From the NCBI GenBank assembly GCA_002694895.1, contig NZNN01000050.1, positions 1-7,199 on the forward strand: a stretch of DNA of 7,199 bases, given 5' to 3'. Every line of letters begins with the position of its first letter. The stretch's first letter is position 1. Below are positions 1 to 7,199 of the stretch, piece by piece. The notes beneath the pieces are model-generated. The model was not told the DNA's origin and made no database searches. It saw only the letters and a program-made list of their open reading frames with translations. This DNA is from Chloroflexota bacterium. Lineage in GTDB: Bacteria; Chloroflexota; Dehalococcoidia; Lucifugimonadales; GCA-002694895. A program made the position numbers and the translations under genes.

Positions 1-1404
1 TCCAATCAAAAGTTGTGTTTTGTTTAATTTTATAGAATTTGTAGATTTTGATTGCACAATTTCTTTGAACCATTTAGAAAGTTCTGAAATATTTAAGAAA
101 GTTAAATCAATAATATTTTTATTGACTATTTTTACTTGTAGTGATTCTTTTTGTAATCTAAATCCATTGCACTCAGGACAAATTATTTTAGACATATATT
201 TTTCTATATCATCCCTAGAGCCTTCAGAATTTGTTTGTTTGTATCTTCTTTCCAGATTATTGACGATACCTTCGAATTTTCTTGAATATCGCATTTTTCC
301 AAATCTTCTTGAAACATAATTGAATTTTATGGGTTTTGATTTTGACCCATAAAGAATAATCTTTAGATTTTCTTCAGATAAATTTTTAATTGGAGTTTGT
401 AATGAGAATTGAAATTGCTCTGATATTGAATTAAATATCCCAAGATATATATTTGCATAACCTCCAGATCTAAACCATGGCGCTATTCCTCCTTGCTCAA
501 TGCTAAGTTCATTATTGGGTATAATTAATTTTGGATCTACTTTTAGAGAATGTCCGATTCCTGAACAGCTATTACAGGCCCCTTTTGGACTGTTAAAACT
601 AAAATTCCTAGGCTCTATTTCTTCTATACTGATATTACAGTCCGGGCATGAAAAAGTATCAGAATATTGTATTTCTTTGTTATTTGATAATGCAATTTTT
701 ATAAGACCTTCAGATAATTTCAGGGATGTTTCAATAGAATTTGTAAGCCTGTCATTGTCTATTTCATTATTTATTTGTAGCCTGTCAACTATAATTTCAA
801 TTGTATGCCATTTATTTTTTTCCAGTTCTATTTTTTCAGATAATTCTTTGATTTCTCCATTGATACGGGCTCTTACAAAACCTGATTTTCGAGCAATATT
901 AAGAGTTTCCTTATGCTCTCCTTTTCTATGTCTAATGATTGGGGATAGGATCATAAATTTTGAATTTATTGGCAGAGATTTAATTGAATCAACAATTTGT
1001 TGTATTGATTGTTTTTTTACTTCTTTATTACATTTAATACAATGTGGGGTTCCAATTCTTGCAAATAATATTCTTAAATAATCATAAATTTCAGTTGTAG
1101 TTCCTACTGTAGATCTTGGGTTTTTTGAAATACCTCTTTGATCTATAGATATTGCAGGCGATAATCCTTCTATATAATCCACATTTGGTTTTTCTAAATT
1201 ACCTAAAAACTGTCTTGCATAAGCCGACAAAGATTCCACATATCTTCTTCTTCCTTCTGCGTAAATTGTGTCAAAGGCTAATGAACTTTTCCCAGATCCT
1301 GATAAACCTGTTATTACAATAAATTTACCTCTTGGAATATTTATATCAATATTTTTTAAATTATGTTCTTTTGCTCCACGTATGACTATGTCGCTAATTT
1401 CCAA
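1..1404 (-). CDS. uvrA: UvrA, excinuclease ABC subunit A (N-terminal half, cut by window edge)
   Basis: This is the damage-recognition ATPase of nucleotide excision repair; it works in the cytoplasm as a dimer that loads UvrB at lesions. The 468 codons from 1404 to the left edge are open without a frameshift, about half of a usual UvrA of roughly 940 residues. Visible motifs are the first Walker A (GLSGSGKSS, residues 33-41), the conserved block RRRYVESLSAYARQFLG (52-68), and SPAISIDQ with NPRSTVGT (82-102). A zinc module has CPDC at 253-256 and CNSC at 277-280. Further CxxC pairs lie at 122/125 and 409/412. The start is TTG: an in-frame TAA lies eight codons upstream and no ATG or GTG occurs between it and the Walker A motif. 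GCGGGA upstream is a weak ribosome site. The gene is transcribed divergently from the tRNA-Ser/sucCD unit. The signature motif and second ATPase half lie outside the window. Confidence 0.97.
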   Translation of the reverse strand, partial: MEISDIVIRGAKEHNLKNIDINIPRGKFIVITGLSGSGKSSLAFDTIYAEGRRRYVESLSAYARQFLGNLEKPNVDYIEGLSPAISIDQRGISKNPRSTVGTTTEIYDYLRILFARIGTPHCIKCNKEVKKQSIQQIVDSIKSLPINSKFMILSPIIRHRKGEHKETLNIARKSGFVRARINGEIKELSEKIELEKNKWHTIEIIVDRLQINNEIDNDRLTNSIETSLKLSEGLIKIALSNNKEIQYSDTFSCPDCNISIEEIEPRNFSFNSPKGACNSCSGIGHSLKVDPKLIIPNNELSIEQGGIAPWFRSGGYANIYLGIFNSISEQFQFSLQTPIKNLSEENLKIILYGSKSKPIKFNYVSRRFGKMRYSRKFEGIVNNLERRYKQTNSEGSRDDIEKYMSKIICPECNGFRLQKESLQVKIVNKNIIDLTFLNISELSKWFKEIVQSKSTNSIKLNKTQLLIG

Positions 1405-1475
1405 TGGATTTCCCGCATTGTATATTTATATATTATTAATTTTAACAAAATATAAATAAGAAAGATTGTAAATAA

Positions 1476-1494
1476 ATTAATTGAGGAAATTAAT
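1476..1494. repeat. Short AT-rich inverted repeat in the divergent intergenic region
   Basis: ATTAATT and AATTAAT form perfect 7-bp arms around the 5-bp centre GAGGA. It lies between the uvrA start and the promoter-like boxes of the tRNA-Ser unit, so it could be an operator or a weak hairpin. In DNA this AT-rich, a 7-bp palindrome can arise by chance. Confidence 0.3.
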
Positions 1495-1505
1495 ACAGCA
1501 ACTAA

Positions 1506-1534
1506 TTTGGATTTAAGATAACAATTGATATAAT
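1506..1534 (+). promoter_or_regulatory. Candidate sigma-70 promoter for tRNA-Ser(UGA)-sucCD
   Basis: A perfect TATAAT (1529-1534) stands 28 bp before the 5' end of the tRNA. A weak -35-like TTTGGA (1506-1511) lies 17 bp upstream of it. The distance suits a start point a few bases upstream of the tRNA. The -10 box is strong and the -35 box poor. No other convincing promoter was seen before sucC. Confidence 0.5.
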
Positions 1535-1562
1535 ATTTGTTTAAACTTTAAAGACTAAACTT

Positions 1563-1649
1563 GGAGAGATGGCCGAGTGGTTTAAGGCGCTGGTCTTGAA
1601 AACCAGTATAATTTTACGATTATCGTGGGTTCGAATCCCACTCTCTCCG
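1563..1649 (+). tRNA. tRNA-Ser, anticodon UGA
   Basis: A complete class II tRNA. The acceptor arms GGAGAGA (1563-1569) and TCTCTCC (1642-1648) pair, with G as discriminator at 1649. The anticodon stem CTGGT/ACCAG encloses the loop CTTGAAA, with TGA at 1597-1599. The long variable arm expected of tRNA-Ser is present (ATAAT/ATTAT around 1608-1623). The T arm is GTGGG-TTCGAAT-CCCAC. CCA is not encoded and must be added after transcription. sucC starts only 22 bp downstream, so the tRNA is probably processed out of a longer transcript. Confidence 0.97.
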
Positions 1650-1671
1650 AATTATCAAAAGAGATATATAT

Positions 1672-2829
1672 TTGAAAATTCATGAATATCAGGCAAAAGA
1701 ATTATTTAAGGATTATGAGATTAAAATCCCAGAAGGATTTATTTGTAAAAATAAAGATGAAATTTTGAAAATCTATAAAACTCTTGATGATGAAGTTGTA
1801 TTAAAAGTCCAAGTACATGCCGGAGGTAGAGGAAAGGTGGGCGGAGTTAAATTAGTTAAATCTGAACAAGAAGTAATTGAATTTGCAGACAGATTTTTAG
1901 GGAAGGGATTTCAAACTGTTCAAACGGCAAATGAGGAGTTTATTGTTAATAAAATTTTAGTAGAAAAAGTTAGCCAAATAAATTCTGAAAGTTATATAGC
2001 ATTGTTGGTAGATGGTGGTAATCAATCTGTGAATATTATAGTTAGCCCTGAAGGGGGTATGGATATTGAGGAAGTAGCTTTCCAATCTCCTGAAAGTATC
2101 TTAACTTTACCAATAAATATAATTACTGGACCAACAGATTTTCAAATAAGAAAAATTAACAGTTTTTTAAGATATGAACAAATTTATTATGTGCAATTAA
2201 GAAAAATTATAAGAAATCTATATAAATTGTATTTAAATAAAGATTGTTCTTTAATTGAAATTAACCCTTTAATTCAAAATAATTCAGGTGAGATATTAGC
2301 TCTTGATGCAAAAATAACCTTTGATGAAGATGCTTTGTTCAGGCAAAATTCAGTTCAGAAGTTAAGAGATTTATCACAGGAAAACCTTGTTGAAATTGAA
2401 ACTGCTAAGTTGGGTATAAAGTATATACAATTACAAGGTACTGTAGGATGTATAGTTAATGGTGCAGGTTTAGCAATGGCTACCATGGATGTTATTCATG
2501 GATCTGGATTAAAGCCGGCAAATTTTTTAGATATTGGTGGTGGCGCAGATGAACATAAGGTTTCAGAAGCAATGTCAGCTGTTTTATCTGATCACAATGT
2601 AGAAGTAGTATTAATAAATTTATTTGGAGGAATTTTAAGGTGCGATGTTGCTGCTAGAGGTTTTTTATCTGCTCTTGATAAATATAATAAAAAAGCTCCC
2701 GAACTTATCATTAGAATGTTAGGTACTAATAGTGATGAAGGCAAAGAAATTCTAAGTGCAAGTAAATATAATATTTCTTTTGCTGATAATTTAAATGAAA
2801 TTTCAAAAATATTACTTACTAAGAGGTAG
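1672..2829 (+). CDS. sucC: Succinyl-CoA synthetase (ligase) beta subunit
   Basis: With SucD it makes the TCA-cycle enzyme that converts succinyl-CoA and NDP plus phosphate to succinate, CoA and NTP. The beta subunit carries the ATP-grasp nucleotide site. The 385-residue length matches the family (about 388). The N-terminus MKIHEYQAKELF is canonical and fixes the start at TTG 1672; the first in-frame ATG is at residue 130. Motifs are VHAGGRGK (48-55), EINPL with the metal ligand Asn198, the paired metal ligand Asp212 in LDAKI, VNGAGLAMATMD (262-273), NFLDIGGGA (284-292) and INLFGGILRCD (325-335). The ribosome site (AAAAGAG, about 8 bp upstream) is weak. The gene lies 22 bp after tRNA-Ser and ends 6 bp before sucD. 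ATP versus GTP preference cannot be read from the sequence with confidence. Confidence 0.98.
   Translation: MKIHEYQAKELFKDYEIKIPEGFICKNKDEILKIYKTLDDEVVLKVQVHAGGRGKVGGVKLVKSEQEVIEFADRFLGKGFQTVQTANEEFIVNKILVEKVSQINSESYIALLVDGGNQSVNIIVSPEGGMDIEEVAFQSPESILTLPINIITGPTDFQIRKINSFLRYEQIYYVQLRKIIRNLYKLYLNKDCSLIEINPLIQNNSGEILALDAKITFDEDALFRQNSVQKLRDLSQENLVEIETAKLGIKYIQLQGTVGCIVNGAGLAMATMDVIHGSGLKPANFLDIGGGADEHKVSEAMSAVLSDHNVEVVLINLFGGILRCDVAARGFLSALDKYNKKAPELIIRMLGTNSDEGKEILSASKYNISFADNLNEISKILLTKR
2822..2827 (+). promoter_or_regulatory. Shine-Dalgarno site deciding the TTG start of sucD
   Basis: AGAGGT overlaps the last codon and the TAG stop of sucC and ends 8 bp before TTG 2836. It supports the TTG start and suggests translational coupling of the two subunits. 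It is the clearest ribosome site in the window. Confidence 0.65.
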
Positions 2830-2835
2830 TTTGAA

Positions 2836-3714
2836 TTGACACTTGAAATTGATAGAAATACTAAAGTTATTGTTCAAGGAATAACTGGAAAAGAAGGTGG
2901 GTTTCATGCTTTGAAATGCCAAGAATATGGAACTCAAATAGTTGGAGGTGTAACTCCTGGTAAAGGTGGACAATTATTTAATAATTCTATACCAGTTTTT
3001 AATTCTGTTATTGAAGCAAAAGATATAACTGATGCTGATACGTCTTTGATATTTGTACCTGCTCCATTCGCCCCAGATGCAATTTTAGAATCCATTGATT
3101 CGGGAATCGAAACAGTTATTTGTATTACCGAAGGTGTACCTGTAAATGAGATGATTAAAATTCATAAAGTTGCAAAAGATCAAGGCGTAACTTTAATTGG
3201 TCCAAATTGCCCAGGAGTAATTAATCCAAAAGAAGAATGTAAAATTGGAATTATGCCTGGGGATATTTTTATGCCCGGAAATGTTGGTGTGGTTTCCAGA
3301 AGTGGAACACTTACATATGAAGCTGTAGATCAGCTCTCAAAAAGAGGTATTGGCCAATCTTTATGCATAGGTATCGGTGGTGATCCTATAGTTGGCACTT
3401 CATTTATTGATGTTTTAGATTATTTTATATCTGATGATTTGACCCAAAGTATAGTTTTTATTGGTGAAATAGGTGGGATAAAAGAACAAGAAGCAGCAGA
3501 ATTTTTAAAATCGGTAAATAATACTAAACCTATAGCAGCTCTTATTGTGGGAGCAAGTGCTCCAAAAGGTAAAAGAATGGGGCATGCAGGGGCAGTAATT
3601 AGCGGTGAATATGGTAAGGCAGAATCAAAGATAAATTCTTTAAAAGATGCCGGTTGTCATATTATCCCACACCCTGGCAAAATAGCAGAAACTGTAGAAA
3701 AGATTATTAATTGA
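2836..3714 (+). CDS. sucD: Succinyl-CoA synthetase (ligase) alpha subunit
   Basis: This subunit binds CoA and carries the histidine that is phosphorylated during the succinyl-CoA synthetase reaction. Its 292 residues match the family (about 289). It aligns by eye along its whole length with E. coli SucD. The CoA-binding Rossmann motif QGITGKEGGFH is at residues 14-24, GGVTPGKGG at 37-45, IGPNCPGVI at 121-129, SRSGTLTYE at 154-162 and GEIGG at 210-214. The phosphohistidine is His250 in KGKRMGHAGA. The start is TTG, supported by the family-typical N-terminus (MTLEIDRNTKVIVQG), the AGAGGT ribosome site, and the next in-frame ATG lying only at residue 105. It follows sucC by 6 bp. Its TGA stop is 3 bp from the 3' end of the converging tRNA-Leu. 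Confidence 0.98.
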   Translation: MTLEIDRNTKVIVQGITGKEGGFHALKCQEYGTQIVGGVTPGKGGQLFNNSIPVFNSVIEAKDITDADTSLIFVPAPFAPDAILESIDSGIETVICITEGVPVNEMIKIHKVAKDQGVTLIGPNCPGVINPKEECKIGIMPGDIFMPGNVGVVSRSGTLTYEAVDQLSKRGIGQSLCIGIGGDPIVGTSFIDVLDYFISDDLTQSIVFIGEIGGIKEQEAAEFLKSVNNTKPIAALIVGASAPKGKRMGHAGAVISGEYGKAESKINSLKDAGCHIIPHPGKIAETVEKIIN

Positions 3715-3717
3715 TAA

Positions 3718-3800
3718 TGGGGAAGGAGAGACTCGAACTCTCACGTTCTATGAACACTTGATCCTAAGTCAAGCGCGTCTACCAATTCCGCCACTTCCCC
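3718..3800 (-). tRNA. tRNA-Leu, anticodon UAG
   Basis: A complete class II tRNA read on the minus strand. The acceptor GGGGAAG pairs with CTTCCCC (3719-3725), with A as discriminator at 3718. The D arm contains GCGGAATTGGTAGACGC, typical of tRNA-Leu. The anticodon stem CTTGA/TCAAG encloses the loop CTTAGGA, with TAG at 3766-3764. The variable arm is GTTC-ATA-GAAC, and the T arm is GAGAG-TTCGAGT-CTCTC. CCA is not encoded. The 5' end is 5 bp after the stop of the 1103-codon gene, so it is probably processed from that gene's transcript. The 3' end is 3 bp from the sucD stop. Confidence 0.97.
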
Positions 3801-3805
3801 AAGTT

Positions 3806-6800
3806 TTATTTTTTTATTTCAATTATATCTAAATGTTGATTAACGTTTATTGAATATAATTTTTGTATTATACCGCTAGGCCATATTATCCTAATTTCAT
3901 CAATAATTTCAATATCACTTAATCCAAATTCTAAATTGGTTGAATCCATTGATAGGTAACTAGATCCGGCTATTACTTCCTGCATTTGTATTGATTTTTG
4001 ATTATTTTTATCTTTATATATTAAATATACTTTTGCTCCTATTCCATCTGAATTACTTCCTGTATTGTCTATACCCATCCTTCCTGTTAATTTTAAGTTT
4101 ATCCAATTGTTTTTACCTCCACCATTAATCCATACATAAAATGGTCCCCCGGCATCATCTAAAGTTCCTGACCATACAGGCCCGCTACTATTTGTTGCAA
4201 TTAAATCAACGTATCCATCGCCATTCAAATCTCCATGAGCTAATCCTTTTCCATTTTCATGATATTTTGTATGAACTTTGTATTTTAAATTGTATTTATT
4301 GTCTGGATATGTGTTTTCTTCGAGGTTTTTAAAATAATTGTTATAATTAATTCCTTGAATATCCAGTAATCTTGAACGTATAGTTATATCCTCATATGAA
4401 AAATCCGGTTTACCTTGAAGCATTCTTCCGGCTGATGGATAGACATTGCCGCCAGGGCCTTCTCCTCTACCTACTTCTGAACCTATCCAGTATATATCTT
4501 TAATCGTGTCATTATTGAAATCAAATGCTGTTACACCGTAACCAAAATCATAAGCACCTATCCCAAGTGGTATATTCATTCCTGGTTTTATATTAGTTTT
4601 TATTGTTGCTTCAGCAGGCATAAAAGGAGATGGAATCACATTTGTTTTTTCAGAAAATTCCTCAAATTTTGGTATTATATTATTATTATCTGTTTCAACT
4701 ATTCCTTTATTTATCAAAAATGAATGTAGGCATGTTCCTAAATTGTGCTTTTCATGATATTTACAATCTCCACCAGGCTTAGGTTTTGGACTTGGCATAC
4801 TCTCAGTGATTATTCTTGAATGAGGTCCTGCATTTGTAATAAAAACGTCTTGTTTACCATCATTGTTAAAGTCGCTTATTGCAAATCCCATCCAATTTCC
4901 AATAATATCTAATCCCATATCTTTTGATATGTGTGTAAATAATATTTTGCCATTGGCTGAATCGTTTCTGTAAATATGTAACTGATCACCGTCGCTTGCT
5001 ACCCATAAATCCTGATCACCATCTTCATCATGATCAAAAAAAGCAGCTGCGTGCGTTGGTCCGGTTGGATCTCCGACTCTATTTAAGTTTTTATCTTTTA
5101 CATCAGGGTTATAGCCCATATATTCCTTATCAGATTTGTCTTTAAAAATTATTTCCTTACCCTCAGGGTTAAGCATTATAACCTGGGGCCCATTTATTCC
5201 GGCTTCTTTTGCAATTTCATCAAATGTTAAATCACCATTGTTCTTATAAAGAAGATTGTAATGCCCTGGATGTGAAGGCCAAAATAAACTAGACATGAAA
5301 AAATCTTCATCGATTAAATTAGTTACATAAAGATCTAAATAACCATCATTATTTATATCAGCACAAGCAATACTACTTGCTGATCTATAATTTAAATTTT
5401 CTTTAAAAGCTTTTCTTGTGATATCTTTAAATTGACCATTTTTCATATTTAAAAAAAGCCTATCTTCAATACCTATGAATTCTGTATTGTTATTATTAAT
5501 TTGAGATCTAAAATCTAATCCGTCGCCATTAAATCCTCTGGCTCCAATGTAAAGATCTTGAAAACCATCATTATTGATATCGCAAGCTACTGCACCACTG
5601 CCATTTAATTTTTTATCACCCAAACCTGCTTCATTGGCAATATTAGTAAAAGTGCCATCAGAATTATTTAAATACAGAATGTTAGAATATTCAGTACCAT
5701 TAGTAATGAAAAAATCCATATCATTATCACGATCAAAATCGAAGATTACTACTCCTGGTCTGTAATTCCATACTTCCATTGGTCCTTTCAAAGTTTCATT
5801 ATCTAATTGTTTAAAATACTTGATATCAAAATTAGAATTGTCATTTTCTTTAGTTAAGAGTTTTTGAGTTATTGTATGTTCTTTAAGAATATTTGTTATT
5901 ATTTCAGGTTCTTTTAATTCAGTTTTTGTAGTTTGAATAGAATTAATTGTTTCTTTTGATTCTCTTATTATTGGTTGGTTATCTGTAAGTTTTATTCCTC
6001 CAGAGATTCCAGAATTATTTATATTGATAATAAGAAGAGAGATCAAACCAGTTGAGATTCCAAGAATCCATATCATTAATGCATAATAAGTAACAGAAAT
6101 TTTAGGTAATACTTTTGATAATCCCCAATAGGTAATTGGTCCCCCTGATGCTGCAGTGAAAAGCAAGGTGGCGGCAGGTGCAACTCCCATGCCAAGTAAT
6201 AGCAATGCAACAACCAATGGTATTTCAAATAAAAGTGGCACATTAATTAAAACTCCAATAGTGCTTGCGATTATTATGCCTTTTAAATTATTGCCTAAAT
6301 AATTATCTATAATGCCAGGAGACAAGAATTGTATTACTAAACCTGCTGCAAATCCGGCGATAATCATTATCGGACCTAATTTAATTACATTAGAAAAAGT
6401 AATTTTCCCAAAATCAAACAAACCTTCTTTCATTGAATTTTTGAAACTTATATTATCTTCTATATTTATTGATTTAATTTGTTCAGTTTTTTCTTTTTTT
6501 AATTTCCATCCAAAAGTTAAGCGTGCAATTATAGGACCAAACAAAAATACACTAATTGCACCTGTTATAATCCTGTTCCATCCTAAGTCAGGTGTAAAAA
6601 TAGTAAAAATCATAATTATTGATAAGAAGTTTAGAGTCGATGAACCTTGTGTTAAGGCTATAACTGATTCAAGTGAAGATCCTTTATTTTTTAAAGAATT
6701 TACCACTGGTACTATACAAGCAGAACAAAGATTTAGAGCAGGTCCTAGTATATATCCTCTAAATATTCCCTTTAATCCTGGAGAAAATAACATAGTTTGA

Positions 6801-7117
6801 TTTTTTCTAGGGAAAATAAAAGCTTCTACAATTCCAGATATGGCGAAAGCAAAAATCATTCCTAAAAGGACTAATTCCATATATTCAAAAGAAAATGTTA
6901 ACCATCTTGAGATTAAAGTGGCCTCAGGGTCGCCTCCTAGACAAAATCCTTGAAAACATTCACCTTTTCTTGATGCTGAAGCAAACAGTTCTTCTTTTAT
7001 TGTCCCGAGTTTTTGAACCCTATTTAAATAGAAAAATAAGGGAGTAGAAAGTAAAACAAGTATTATTCCTACTATTCTTTTTATATGTGTATTATTATTA
7101 AAATCTATAAATTTCAT
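3806..7117 (-). CDS. Permease (UPF0718/ArsP-like) fused to an FG-GAP/ASPIC-UnbV (CRTAC1-like) propeller
   Basis: A 1103-residue open frame starting at ATG 7117, with no clear ribosome site. Residues 1-365 are a polytopic membrane domain with roughly nine hydrophobic segments (the first about 14-31, the last about 341-364). It resembles the UPF0718/ArsP permeases: an internal duplication, with LCSACIVPVVNSLKNKG (130-146) in the first half and FEIPLVVALLLLGMGVAP (297-314) in the second. A hydrophilic linker covers about 366-440. Seven D-x-[DN]-x-D-x-x-x-D loops follow (residues 460-971), typical of FG-GAP/VCBS propeller blades that bind calcium. Residues about 1020-1100 are an ASPIC/UnbV domain (GAKV, AGSSYLS, FGL, IIWPSG, NQHLDIIE). 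By analogy with CRTAC1-like proteins the C-terminal part should lie outside the cytoplasm. ArsP members export organoarsenicals, but that substrate cannot be assumed here. Cysteine pairs (54/59, 131/134) and a Cys/His cluster (785-798) may bind metal. tRNA-Leu follows 5 bp downstream. Domain calls are firm; function is unknown. Confidence 0.9.
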   Translation of the reverse strand: MKFIDFNNNTHIKRIVGIILVLLSTPLFFYLNRVQKLGTIKEELFASASRKGECFQGFCLGGDPEATLISRWLTFSFEYMELVLLGMIFAFAISGIVEAFIFPRKNQTMLFSPGLKGIFRGYILGPALNLCSACIVPVVNSLKNKGSSLESVIALTQGSSTLNFLSIIMIFTIFTPDLGWNRIITGAISVFLFGPIIARLTFGWKLKKEKTEQIKSINIEDNISFKNSMKEGLFDFGKITFSNVIKLGPIMIIAGFAAGLVIQFLSPGIIDNYLGNNLKGIIIASTIGVLINVPLLFEIPLVVALLLLGMGVAPAATLLFTAASGGPITYWGLSKVLPKISVTYYALMIWILGISTGLISLLIININNSGISGGIKLTDNQPIIRESKETINSIQTTKTELKEPEIITNILKEHTITQKLLTKENDNSNFDIKYFKQLDNETLKGPMEVWNYRPGVVIFDFDRDNDMDFFITNGTEYSNILYLNNSDGTFTNIANEAGLGDKKLNGSGAVACDINNDGFQDLYIGARGFNGDGLDFRSQINNNNTEFIGIEDRLFLNMKNGQFKDITRKAFKENLNYRSASSIACADINNDGYLDLYVTNLIDEDFFMSSLFWPSHPGHYNLLYKNNGDLTFDEIAKEAGINGPQVIMLNPEGKEIIFKDKSDKEYMGYNPDVKDKNLNRVGDPTGPTHAAAFFDHDEDGDQDLWVASDGDQLHIYRNDSANGKILFTHISKDMGLDIIGNWMGFAISDFNNDGKQDVFITNAGPHSRIITESMPSPKPKPGGDCKYHEKHNLGTCLHSFLINKGIVETDNNNIIPKFEEFSEKTNVIPSPFMPAEATIKTNIKPGMNIPLGIGAYDFGYGVTAFDFNNDTIKDIYWIGSEVGRGEGPGGNVYPSAGRMLQGKPDFSYEDITIRSRLLDIQGINYNNYFKNLEENTYPDNKYNLKYKVHTKYHENGKGLAHGDLNGDGYVDLIATNSSGPVWSGTLDDAGGPFYVWINGGGKNNWINLKLTGRMGIDNTGSNSDGIGAKVYLIYKDKNNQKSIQMQEVIAGSSYLSMDSTNLEFGLSDIEIIDEIRIIWPSGIIQKLYSINVNQHLDIIEIKK
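4205..5740 (-). repeat. Seven FG-GAP/VCBS calcium-loop repeats within the fusion protein
   Basis: The loops begin at residues 460 (DFDRDNDMD), 513 (DINNDGFQD), 587 (DINNDGYLD), 695 (DHDEDGDQD), 749 (DFNNDGKQD), 866 (DFNNDTIKD) and 963 (DLNGDGYVD). All keep the spaced acidic residues of an EF-hand-like calcium loop, each followed by a hydrophobic strand (for example LYIGA, LWVAS). Seven copies fit one closed seven-bladed beta-propeller, as in integrin alpha chains and CRTAC1. Spacing is uneven: about 53-110 residues, with large inserts after blades 3, 5 and 6. Confidence 0.85.
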
Positions 7118-7159
7118 TAATTACTATGTTATTGAGATAGTTTTTGAATGTATGACCAT

Positions 7160-7165
7160 ATCATA
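7160..7165 (-). promoter_or_regulatory. Possible -10 box for the fusion gene
   Basis: TATGAT on the minus strand lies 42 bp before the ATG at 7117, in the only upstream sequence visible. At 17 bp upstream there is only TTTTAA, a poor -35 box. The real promoter may lie beyond the right edge. Nothing else recognisable was seen in 7118-7199. Confidence 0.22.
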
Positions 7166-7199
7166 ATTAAATTTGTTAAATTTTAAAACTTTAATAGAT

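Follow-up and report, generated by a model that had tools for sequence, protein, structure and literature searches.

We analysed a stretch of 7,199 nucleotides (hereafter the window) from a Chloroflexota bacterium of the order Lucifugimonadales (GenBank assembly GCA_002694895.1, contig NZNN01000050.1, positions 1 to 7,199) and found that its minus strand encodes a single chain of 1103 amino acids (aa), in which a permease of the ArsP_1 family is fused to an FG-GAP beta-propeller with a C-terminal ASPIC/UnbV domain. The fusion is neither a chance event nor a frame artefact. The single domains are known, and automatic annotation already sees them together. We infer that the protein captures and carries a thiol-seeking substrate; our tentative preference, a real possibility though well short of assured, is that the external propeller binds this substrate and passes it to a cysteine-lined carrier, with uptake likelier than export.

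The open reading frame (ORF) runs uninterrupted from an ATG at 7117 to a stop ending at 3806, so that the start and end of the 1103-codon frame given in a preliminary description of the window were confirmed, the strand being added here. The Pfam search of the window protein revealed PF03773 (ArsP_1) at 81.9 bits against a curated cut-off of 32.3, FG-GAP_3 at 109.8 bits in five stretches and FG-GAP at 57.7 bits, both above cut-off, and UnbV_ASPIC at 63 bits against a cut-off of 23.4. The UPF0718/ArsP relationship proposed in that description was thereby found, as were its seven calcium-loop repeats before an ASPIC/UnbV end: seven canonical DxDxDxxxD-type loops start at residues 460, 513, 587, 695, 749, 866 and 963, and an eighth pattern match, at residue 675, is off-type. 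The features of the gene, all on the minus strand, are as follows.

3806..7117, minus strand: whole gene, permease-propeller fusion, 1103 aa (ORF, Pfam, best 120 relatives)
6917..7093, minus strand: residues 9-67, N-terminal helix plus predicted outer loop, not covered by the PF03773 model (Pfam, models, charge count)
6941..6958, minus strand: CFQGFC motif, residues 54-59 (conservation)
6041..6883, minus strand: PF03773 ArsP_1 permease region, residues 79-359 (Pfam)
6716..6727, minus strand: CSAC, residues 131-134, at the predicted break of the first helix-break-helix hairpin, 115-144 (conservation, model)
6218..6244, minus strand: NVPLLFEIP, residues 292-300, with E298, at the predicted break of the second hairpin, 278-307 (conservation, model)
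5819..6013, minus strand: low-confidence linker, residues 369-433 (local model confidence, substitution rates)
4109..5818, minus strand: FG-GAP beta-propeller, residues about 434-1003 (Pfam, model, fold search)
5714..5740, minus strand: cation loop 1, residues 460-468 (pattern)
5555..5581, minus strand: cation loop 2, residues 513-521 (pattern)
5333..5359, minus strand: cation loop 3, residues 587-595 (pattern)
5009..5035, minus strand: cation loop 4, residues 695-703 (pattern)
4847..4873, minus strand: cation loop 5, residues 749-757 (pattern)
4496..4522, minus strand: cation loop 6, residues 866-874 (pattern)
4205..4231, minus strand: cation loop 7, residues 963-971 (pattern)
5582..5584, minus strand: propeller cysteine C512 (120/120 relatives, 13/13 stand-alone propellers)
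5363..5365, minus strand: propeller cysteine C585 (120/120 relatives, 13/13 stand-alone propellers)
4763..4765, minus strand: propeller cysteine C785 (120/120 relatives, 13/13 stand-alone propellers)
4730..4732, minus strand: propeller cysteine C796 (120/120 relatives, 13/13 stand-alone propellers)
3830..4045, minus strand: ASPIC/UnbV domain, residues 1025-1096 (Pfam)

The whole chain was present in its own genome and in all four other genomes of the genus (identity 72-100%). A search with the whole protein, whose length filter favours matches carrying all four domains, gave PF03773, PF13517, PF01839 and PF07593 together in each of the best 120 of 2186 matches, and a search with the permease alone gave, among long proteins, an FG-GAP fusion in 119 of the best 120 of 587 matches (by reading). 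Among short proteins, the best 120 of 200 matches mostly carried PF03773 alone, together with fragments and forms with TIG, FG-GAP, ASPIC or cyclophilin domains. An assembly or frame artefact was rejected because the chain recurs in other genomes and in the best database matches; the single-chain fusion is preserved across relatives, and homologs are not always two genes. Within the order, the permease was found in 61 of 250 genomes, with 59 of 68 full-length matches lying within long frames, and an even draw of the phylum gave it in 3 of 400 genomes, the own genome included. Candidatus Lucifugimonas marina JH1073 (locus L085) carries a 1080-aa fusion that has a window-type propeller, and carriers named outside Chloroflexota include Spirochaetota L089, L092 and L095, others being possibly misbinned. 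The ratio of nonsynonymous to synonymous substitution rates (dN/dS, NG86, one sequence pair) against the nearest relative was 0.047 for the permease, 0.18 for the linker and 0.078 for the propeller with ASPIC, so that both parts look constrained.

Judged by its sequence, the permease part represents a subfamily of its own, recognisable by CxQGxC in a predicted outer loop and CSAC at a predicted hairpin tip. Each of the window protein's eight cysteines was retained in 118 to 120 of 120 full-length relatives; C54 and C59 were present in 118, the remaining two being gaps. In 52 of 52 diverse permeases C54, C59, C131 and C134 were invariant, as were N292, P294, F297, E298 and P300. CxQGxC was found in 321 and CSAC in 325 of 328 database proteins, and each occurred in all 80 permease ORFs from 79 loci (the narrower CFQG in 79). 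In contrast, four unfused PF03773 relatives (L109, L119, L126 and L133) have CSCS or CSCC and no CFQGFC, and L110 has neither a CSC-type motif nor CFQGFC. When CSACIVP is set against the CSC-type motif followed by proline, the first cysteine, the serine and the proline agree, whereas the second cysteine lies one position later. The window protein resembles ArsP, SaoE, SO_0444 and YraQ-type permeases in its PF03773 score and, in part, in having cysteines ahead of a proline at the corresponding position, and adds to the ArsP_1/UPF0718 plan an N-terminal helix with CxQGxC and a 700-residue external part.

Hydropathy analysis gave eight peaks in the membrane part, and the models added an N-terminal helix followed by long helices and two helix-break-helix hairpins, which comes close to the nine or so membrane segments counted earlier. 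The core is predicted to be elevator-like, with CSAC and E298 at the hairpin tips, and the propeller and the CFQGFC loop are predicted to lie outside the membrane. The outer position of the propeller, already proposed in the preliminary description, is backed by three indirect lines, namely model topology, charge bias (12 lysines plus arginines in 55 predicted inner-loop residues versus 5 in 52 outer residues) and the lipoprotein-like character of stand-alone propellers. It is also supported by L031, where one species has the permease (414 aa) and the propeller (726 aa) as neighbouring genes that overlap. The predicted local distance difference test score was below 50 over linker residues 378-429. 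The head itself is CRTAC1-like, with FG-GAP and ASPIC/UnbV models above cut-off and a predicted fold of propeller plus C-terminal domain; in the fold alignment it shares 23% identity with the solved structure of murine CRTAC1 (9etn), which has no membrane carrier. CRTAC1 is a secreted animal protein.

TRAP systems rely on an external binding protein. The window permease has a moderate fold resemblance to TRAP and other elevator-type carriers, but its head, a propeller, shares one chain with the carrier, and no TRAP, DASS or solute-binding Pfam domain matched the window protein at E values up to 1. In its way of working the protein would resemble a secondary carrier that depends on a binding protein, as TRAP transporters do, yet it would not itself belong to them. 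The propeller, on the same predicted outer side as the CFQGFC loop, would capture its substrate (a soft metal, a metalloid, an organometal or a sulfur compound) and hand it to the cysteine-lined permease, and carriage would more probably be inward, since the variable part is external and looks like a binding component. A listed SO_0444 family selenoprotein with UxC, in the available part of PMC13188914, is consistent with thiol or metal chemistry.

The opposite direction was also weighed. The permease could extrude a toxic thiol-binding compound that the propeller then binds, stores or releases outside, as suggested by PF03773 membership, by the closest NCBIfam neighbours, the efflux families SaoE and SO_0444, and by the export role of ArsP in the accessible text of PMC7176098. 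However, the window protein scored only 71.7 bits against the cut-off of 325 for the SaoE equivalog (NF040736) and 33.4 bits against 300 for the SO_0444 Cu/Zn efflux equivalog (NF033936), so arsenic or copper efflux by family name was rejected; PF03773 itself is widespread (8 of 14 control genomes). Furthermore, export needs no large variable external head, and no ars-type or resistance-type family appeared in the 25 listed of 135 families matched by 139 neighbours of relatives. No link to arsenic emerged from the equivalog scores or from the neighbour families listed. We regard such an exporter as rather unlikely, though worth keeping in view. The near neighbours were taken at positions +-1 and +-2 of 38 of 79 loci and the far ones at +-7 and +-8, from mechanically called ORFs, some of them spurious. 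Only ORFs of 90 to 1100 aa that were complete within the locus and contained no permease were used, and 3 of 142 were dropped to keep within a residue limit. BPD_transp_1 occurred in 11 of 139 near and 3 of 76 further neighbours (p 0.39).

The external part varied among relatives. The 80 permease ORFs carried a window-type propeller in 28 cases, a divergent FG-GAP head in 36 and none in 7; five had another or a broken tail, a class that includes L045, apparently a broken fusion and not a new module, and four were cut by contig ends. In L055 the permease was followed by a PD40 propeller, then a TIG domain and finally an FG-GAP and ASPIC head. Fusions of about 1260 aa were also seen in L062, L066, L071, L080, L088 and others, L055 being the one scanned. 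The tail of L029 was beta-helix-like by eye, and that of P0311 reached 21.2 bits, below the cut-off of 25.9. In P0214 the same permease type was joined to a cyclophilin-type isomerase domain (138.4 bits), and L026 had an ASPIC-like end alone (20.7 bits, below the cut-off of 23.4). A separate window-type propeller gene (L026:5681-7810, 709 aa) lies beside the L026 permease, in a record labelled Acidiferrobacteraceae and possibly misbinned. The tails of L064 and L086 gave no Pfam match, and a guess of cupredoxin-like tails there was dropped. In a quick permease tree with long branches flagged and the contig-cut rows L035, L039, L054 and L084 excluded as labels, the window-type head did not form one clade (8 changes versus the rest, approximately unbiased test p 1.5e-5; 15 changes for all head types). 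External heads appear to have been exchanged over evolution, and repeated exchange and repeated divergence would both fit. The protein, first taken as a single unusual one, was rightly described as a fusion but belongs to a subfamily in which the head varies and the core is sometimes lost.

Propellers were also found separately. Thirteen propeller ORFs had no permease, and all kept the four propeller cysteines; a lipobox was recognised in six by pattern and in five by eye, and the other two had a plain N-terminal anchor and an unclear start. Two G005 paralogs lack the CSAC stretch and have N292G, P294W, F297A and E298A, yet keep the propeller and CFQGFC or CLQGFC. In G044, of the same genus, a contig-cut frame has no CSAC hairpin but still shows CFQGYC and, in the second hairpin, FE. 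Closest to the G005 propellers were the 771-aa lipoprotein-like propellers L013 and L014 (support 94), in a tree where the G005 row L012 carries the label "fused" despite its degenerate carrier. L013 and L014 have no permease, retain CVQGVC in a stretch weakly resembling the outer loop (best E 7e-5 in a 20-sequence set), and alone had CxQGxC without a permease match among 1195 called ORFs in 108 loci. Judging from these few lineages, CxQGxC therefore seems to go with the propeller and not with carriage.

These forms bear on two further explanations. One is that the membrane part mainly anchors exposed heads for adhesion, matrix contact or sensing, transport being secondary or lost, and it draws on a membrane part that stays constant while heads vary, on the paralogs of G005 and the G044 frame that lost the CSAC hairpin, and on integrin-like propellers among the fold matches. 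The residues invariant in all 52 diverse permeases and the lowest dN/dS in the gene go beyond what a mere anchor would need, and we consider this explanation unlikely. The other is a thiol-redox relay, in which the membrane CSAC and the outer CxQGxC pass electrons across the membrane to disulfides of the head. Four conserved cysteine pairs on one chain and the persistence of CxQGxC beside the propeller after loss of the carrier core would suit it, but no thioredoxin, DsbD or CcdA model in Pfam or NCBIfam matched the window protein and its nearest families transport metals or metalloids, which makes a relay quite improbable.

Several results also weigh against capture and inward carriage. Known relatives are exporters, which speaks for the opposite direction; besides ArsP, a PF03773 relative is described as one, by annotation and induction, in the part of PMC10092412 available. 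Loss of the CSAC hairpin with CxQGxC present in two genomes of one genus indicates that carriage is not always kept, and some permeases have no external module or a non-obvious binder such as cyclophilin. The resemblance to elevators was moderate (root mean square deviation 4.6-6.6 Å among the ten top fold matches); a Foldseek search with the permease gave no known fold at E 0.001 or better (best 0.45), and profile comparison of the permease halves gave no significant internal repeat (probability 1%). The neighbours named no substrate, a difference between the 139 near and the 76 further off not being shown. A wider proposal, which we hold with more doubt than capture and carriage itself, is a class of plug-in transporters in SAR202-like bacteria, with a cysteine-gated elevator core (CxQGxC, CSAC) and exchangeable heads (propeller, double propeller, beta-helix, cyclophilin), in which the CxQGxC loop and the propeller would form an external thiol or metal capture site that outlives the carrier and persists as a lipoprotein.

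The source assembly comprises 1.05 Mb in 65 contigs at 65% completeness, and the window has a G+C content of 30.7%. The available part of PMC11994032 describes SAR202 genomes from the sunlit ocean that are small and low in G+C, and the agreement in size and G+C suggests that the present genome is one of these. The fusion gene has a tRNA-Leu gene, sucCD-like genes and a second FG-GAP gene as neighbours.

3717-3801, minus strand: tRNA-Leu (tag), immediately following the fusion gene on its downstream side
1562-1650, plus strand: tRNA-Ser (tga), ahead of the sucC-like ORF

The adjacent ORFs at 1672-3714 (plus strand, TTG starts) we take to be a succinyl-CoA ligase pair, and the cut ORF at 1-1404 (minus strand) is presumably UvrA-like; the order of this pair and the UvrA-like ORF was conserved in loci L021-L024. 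The second FG-GAP/ASPIC gene lies at contig positions 7219-9420 (plus strand; L164:220-2421), 20 bases past the window end and head to head with the fusion gene across a gap of 101 bp, and encodes a protein of 733 aa with an N-terminal anchor. These two were the sole FG-GAP_3 genes detected in the genome, which is 65% complete. A divergent FG-GAP neighbour was also present in the other genus loci with enough flank (L002-L004 and L022-L024).

No description of the permease-propeller layout, and hence no well-described family of the kind the preliminary description had allowed for, was found in the accessible parts of the literature searched, which included SAR202 papers and left most subscription journals uncovered.

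Other carriers with fused binding domains are known. SAR202-like bacteria are abundant in the ocean, and little is understood of how they take up dissolved matter. Because the cultured Lucifugimonas marina JH1073 carries the fusion, it can be tested what is carried, in which direction, and what CxQGxC and CSAC do; the two genomes with a worn-down core, like the related lipoproteins, provide natural experiments on the importance of each part. If capture and carriage proves true, the protein would be a secondary carrier with a fused, exchangeable, propeller-shaped external binding part, in a family known so far for export.
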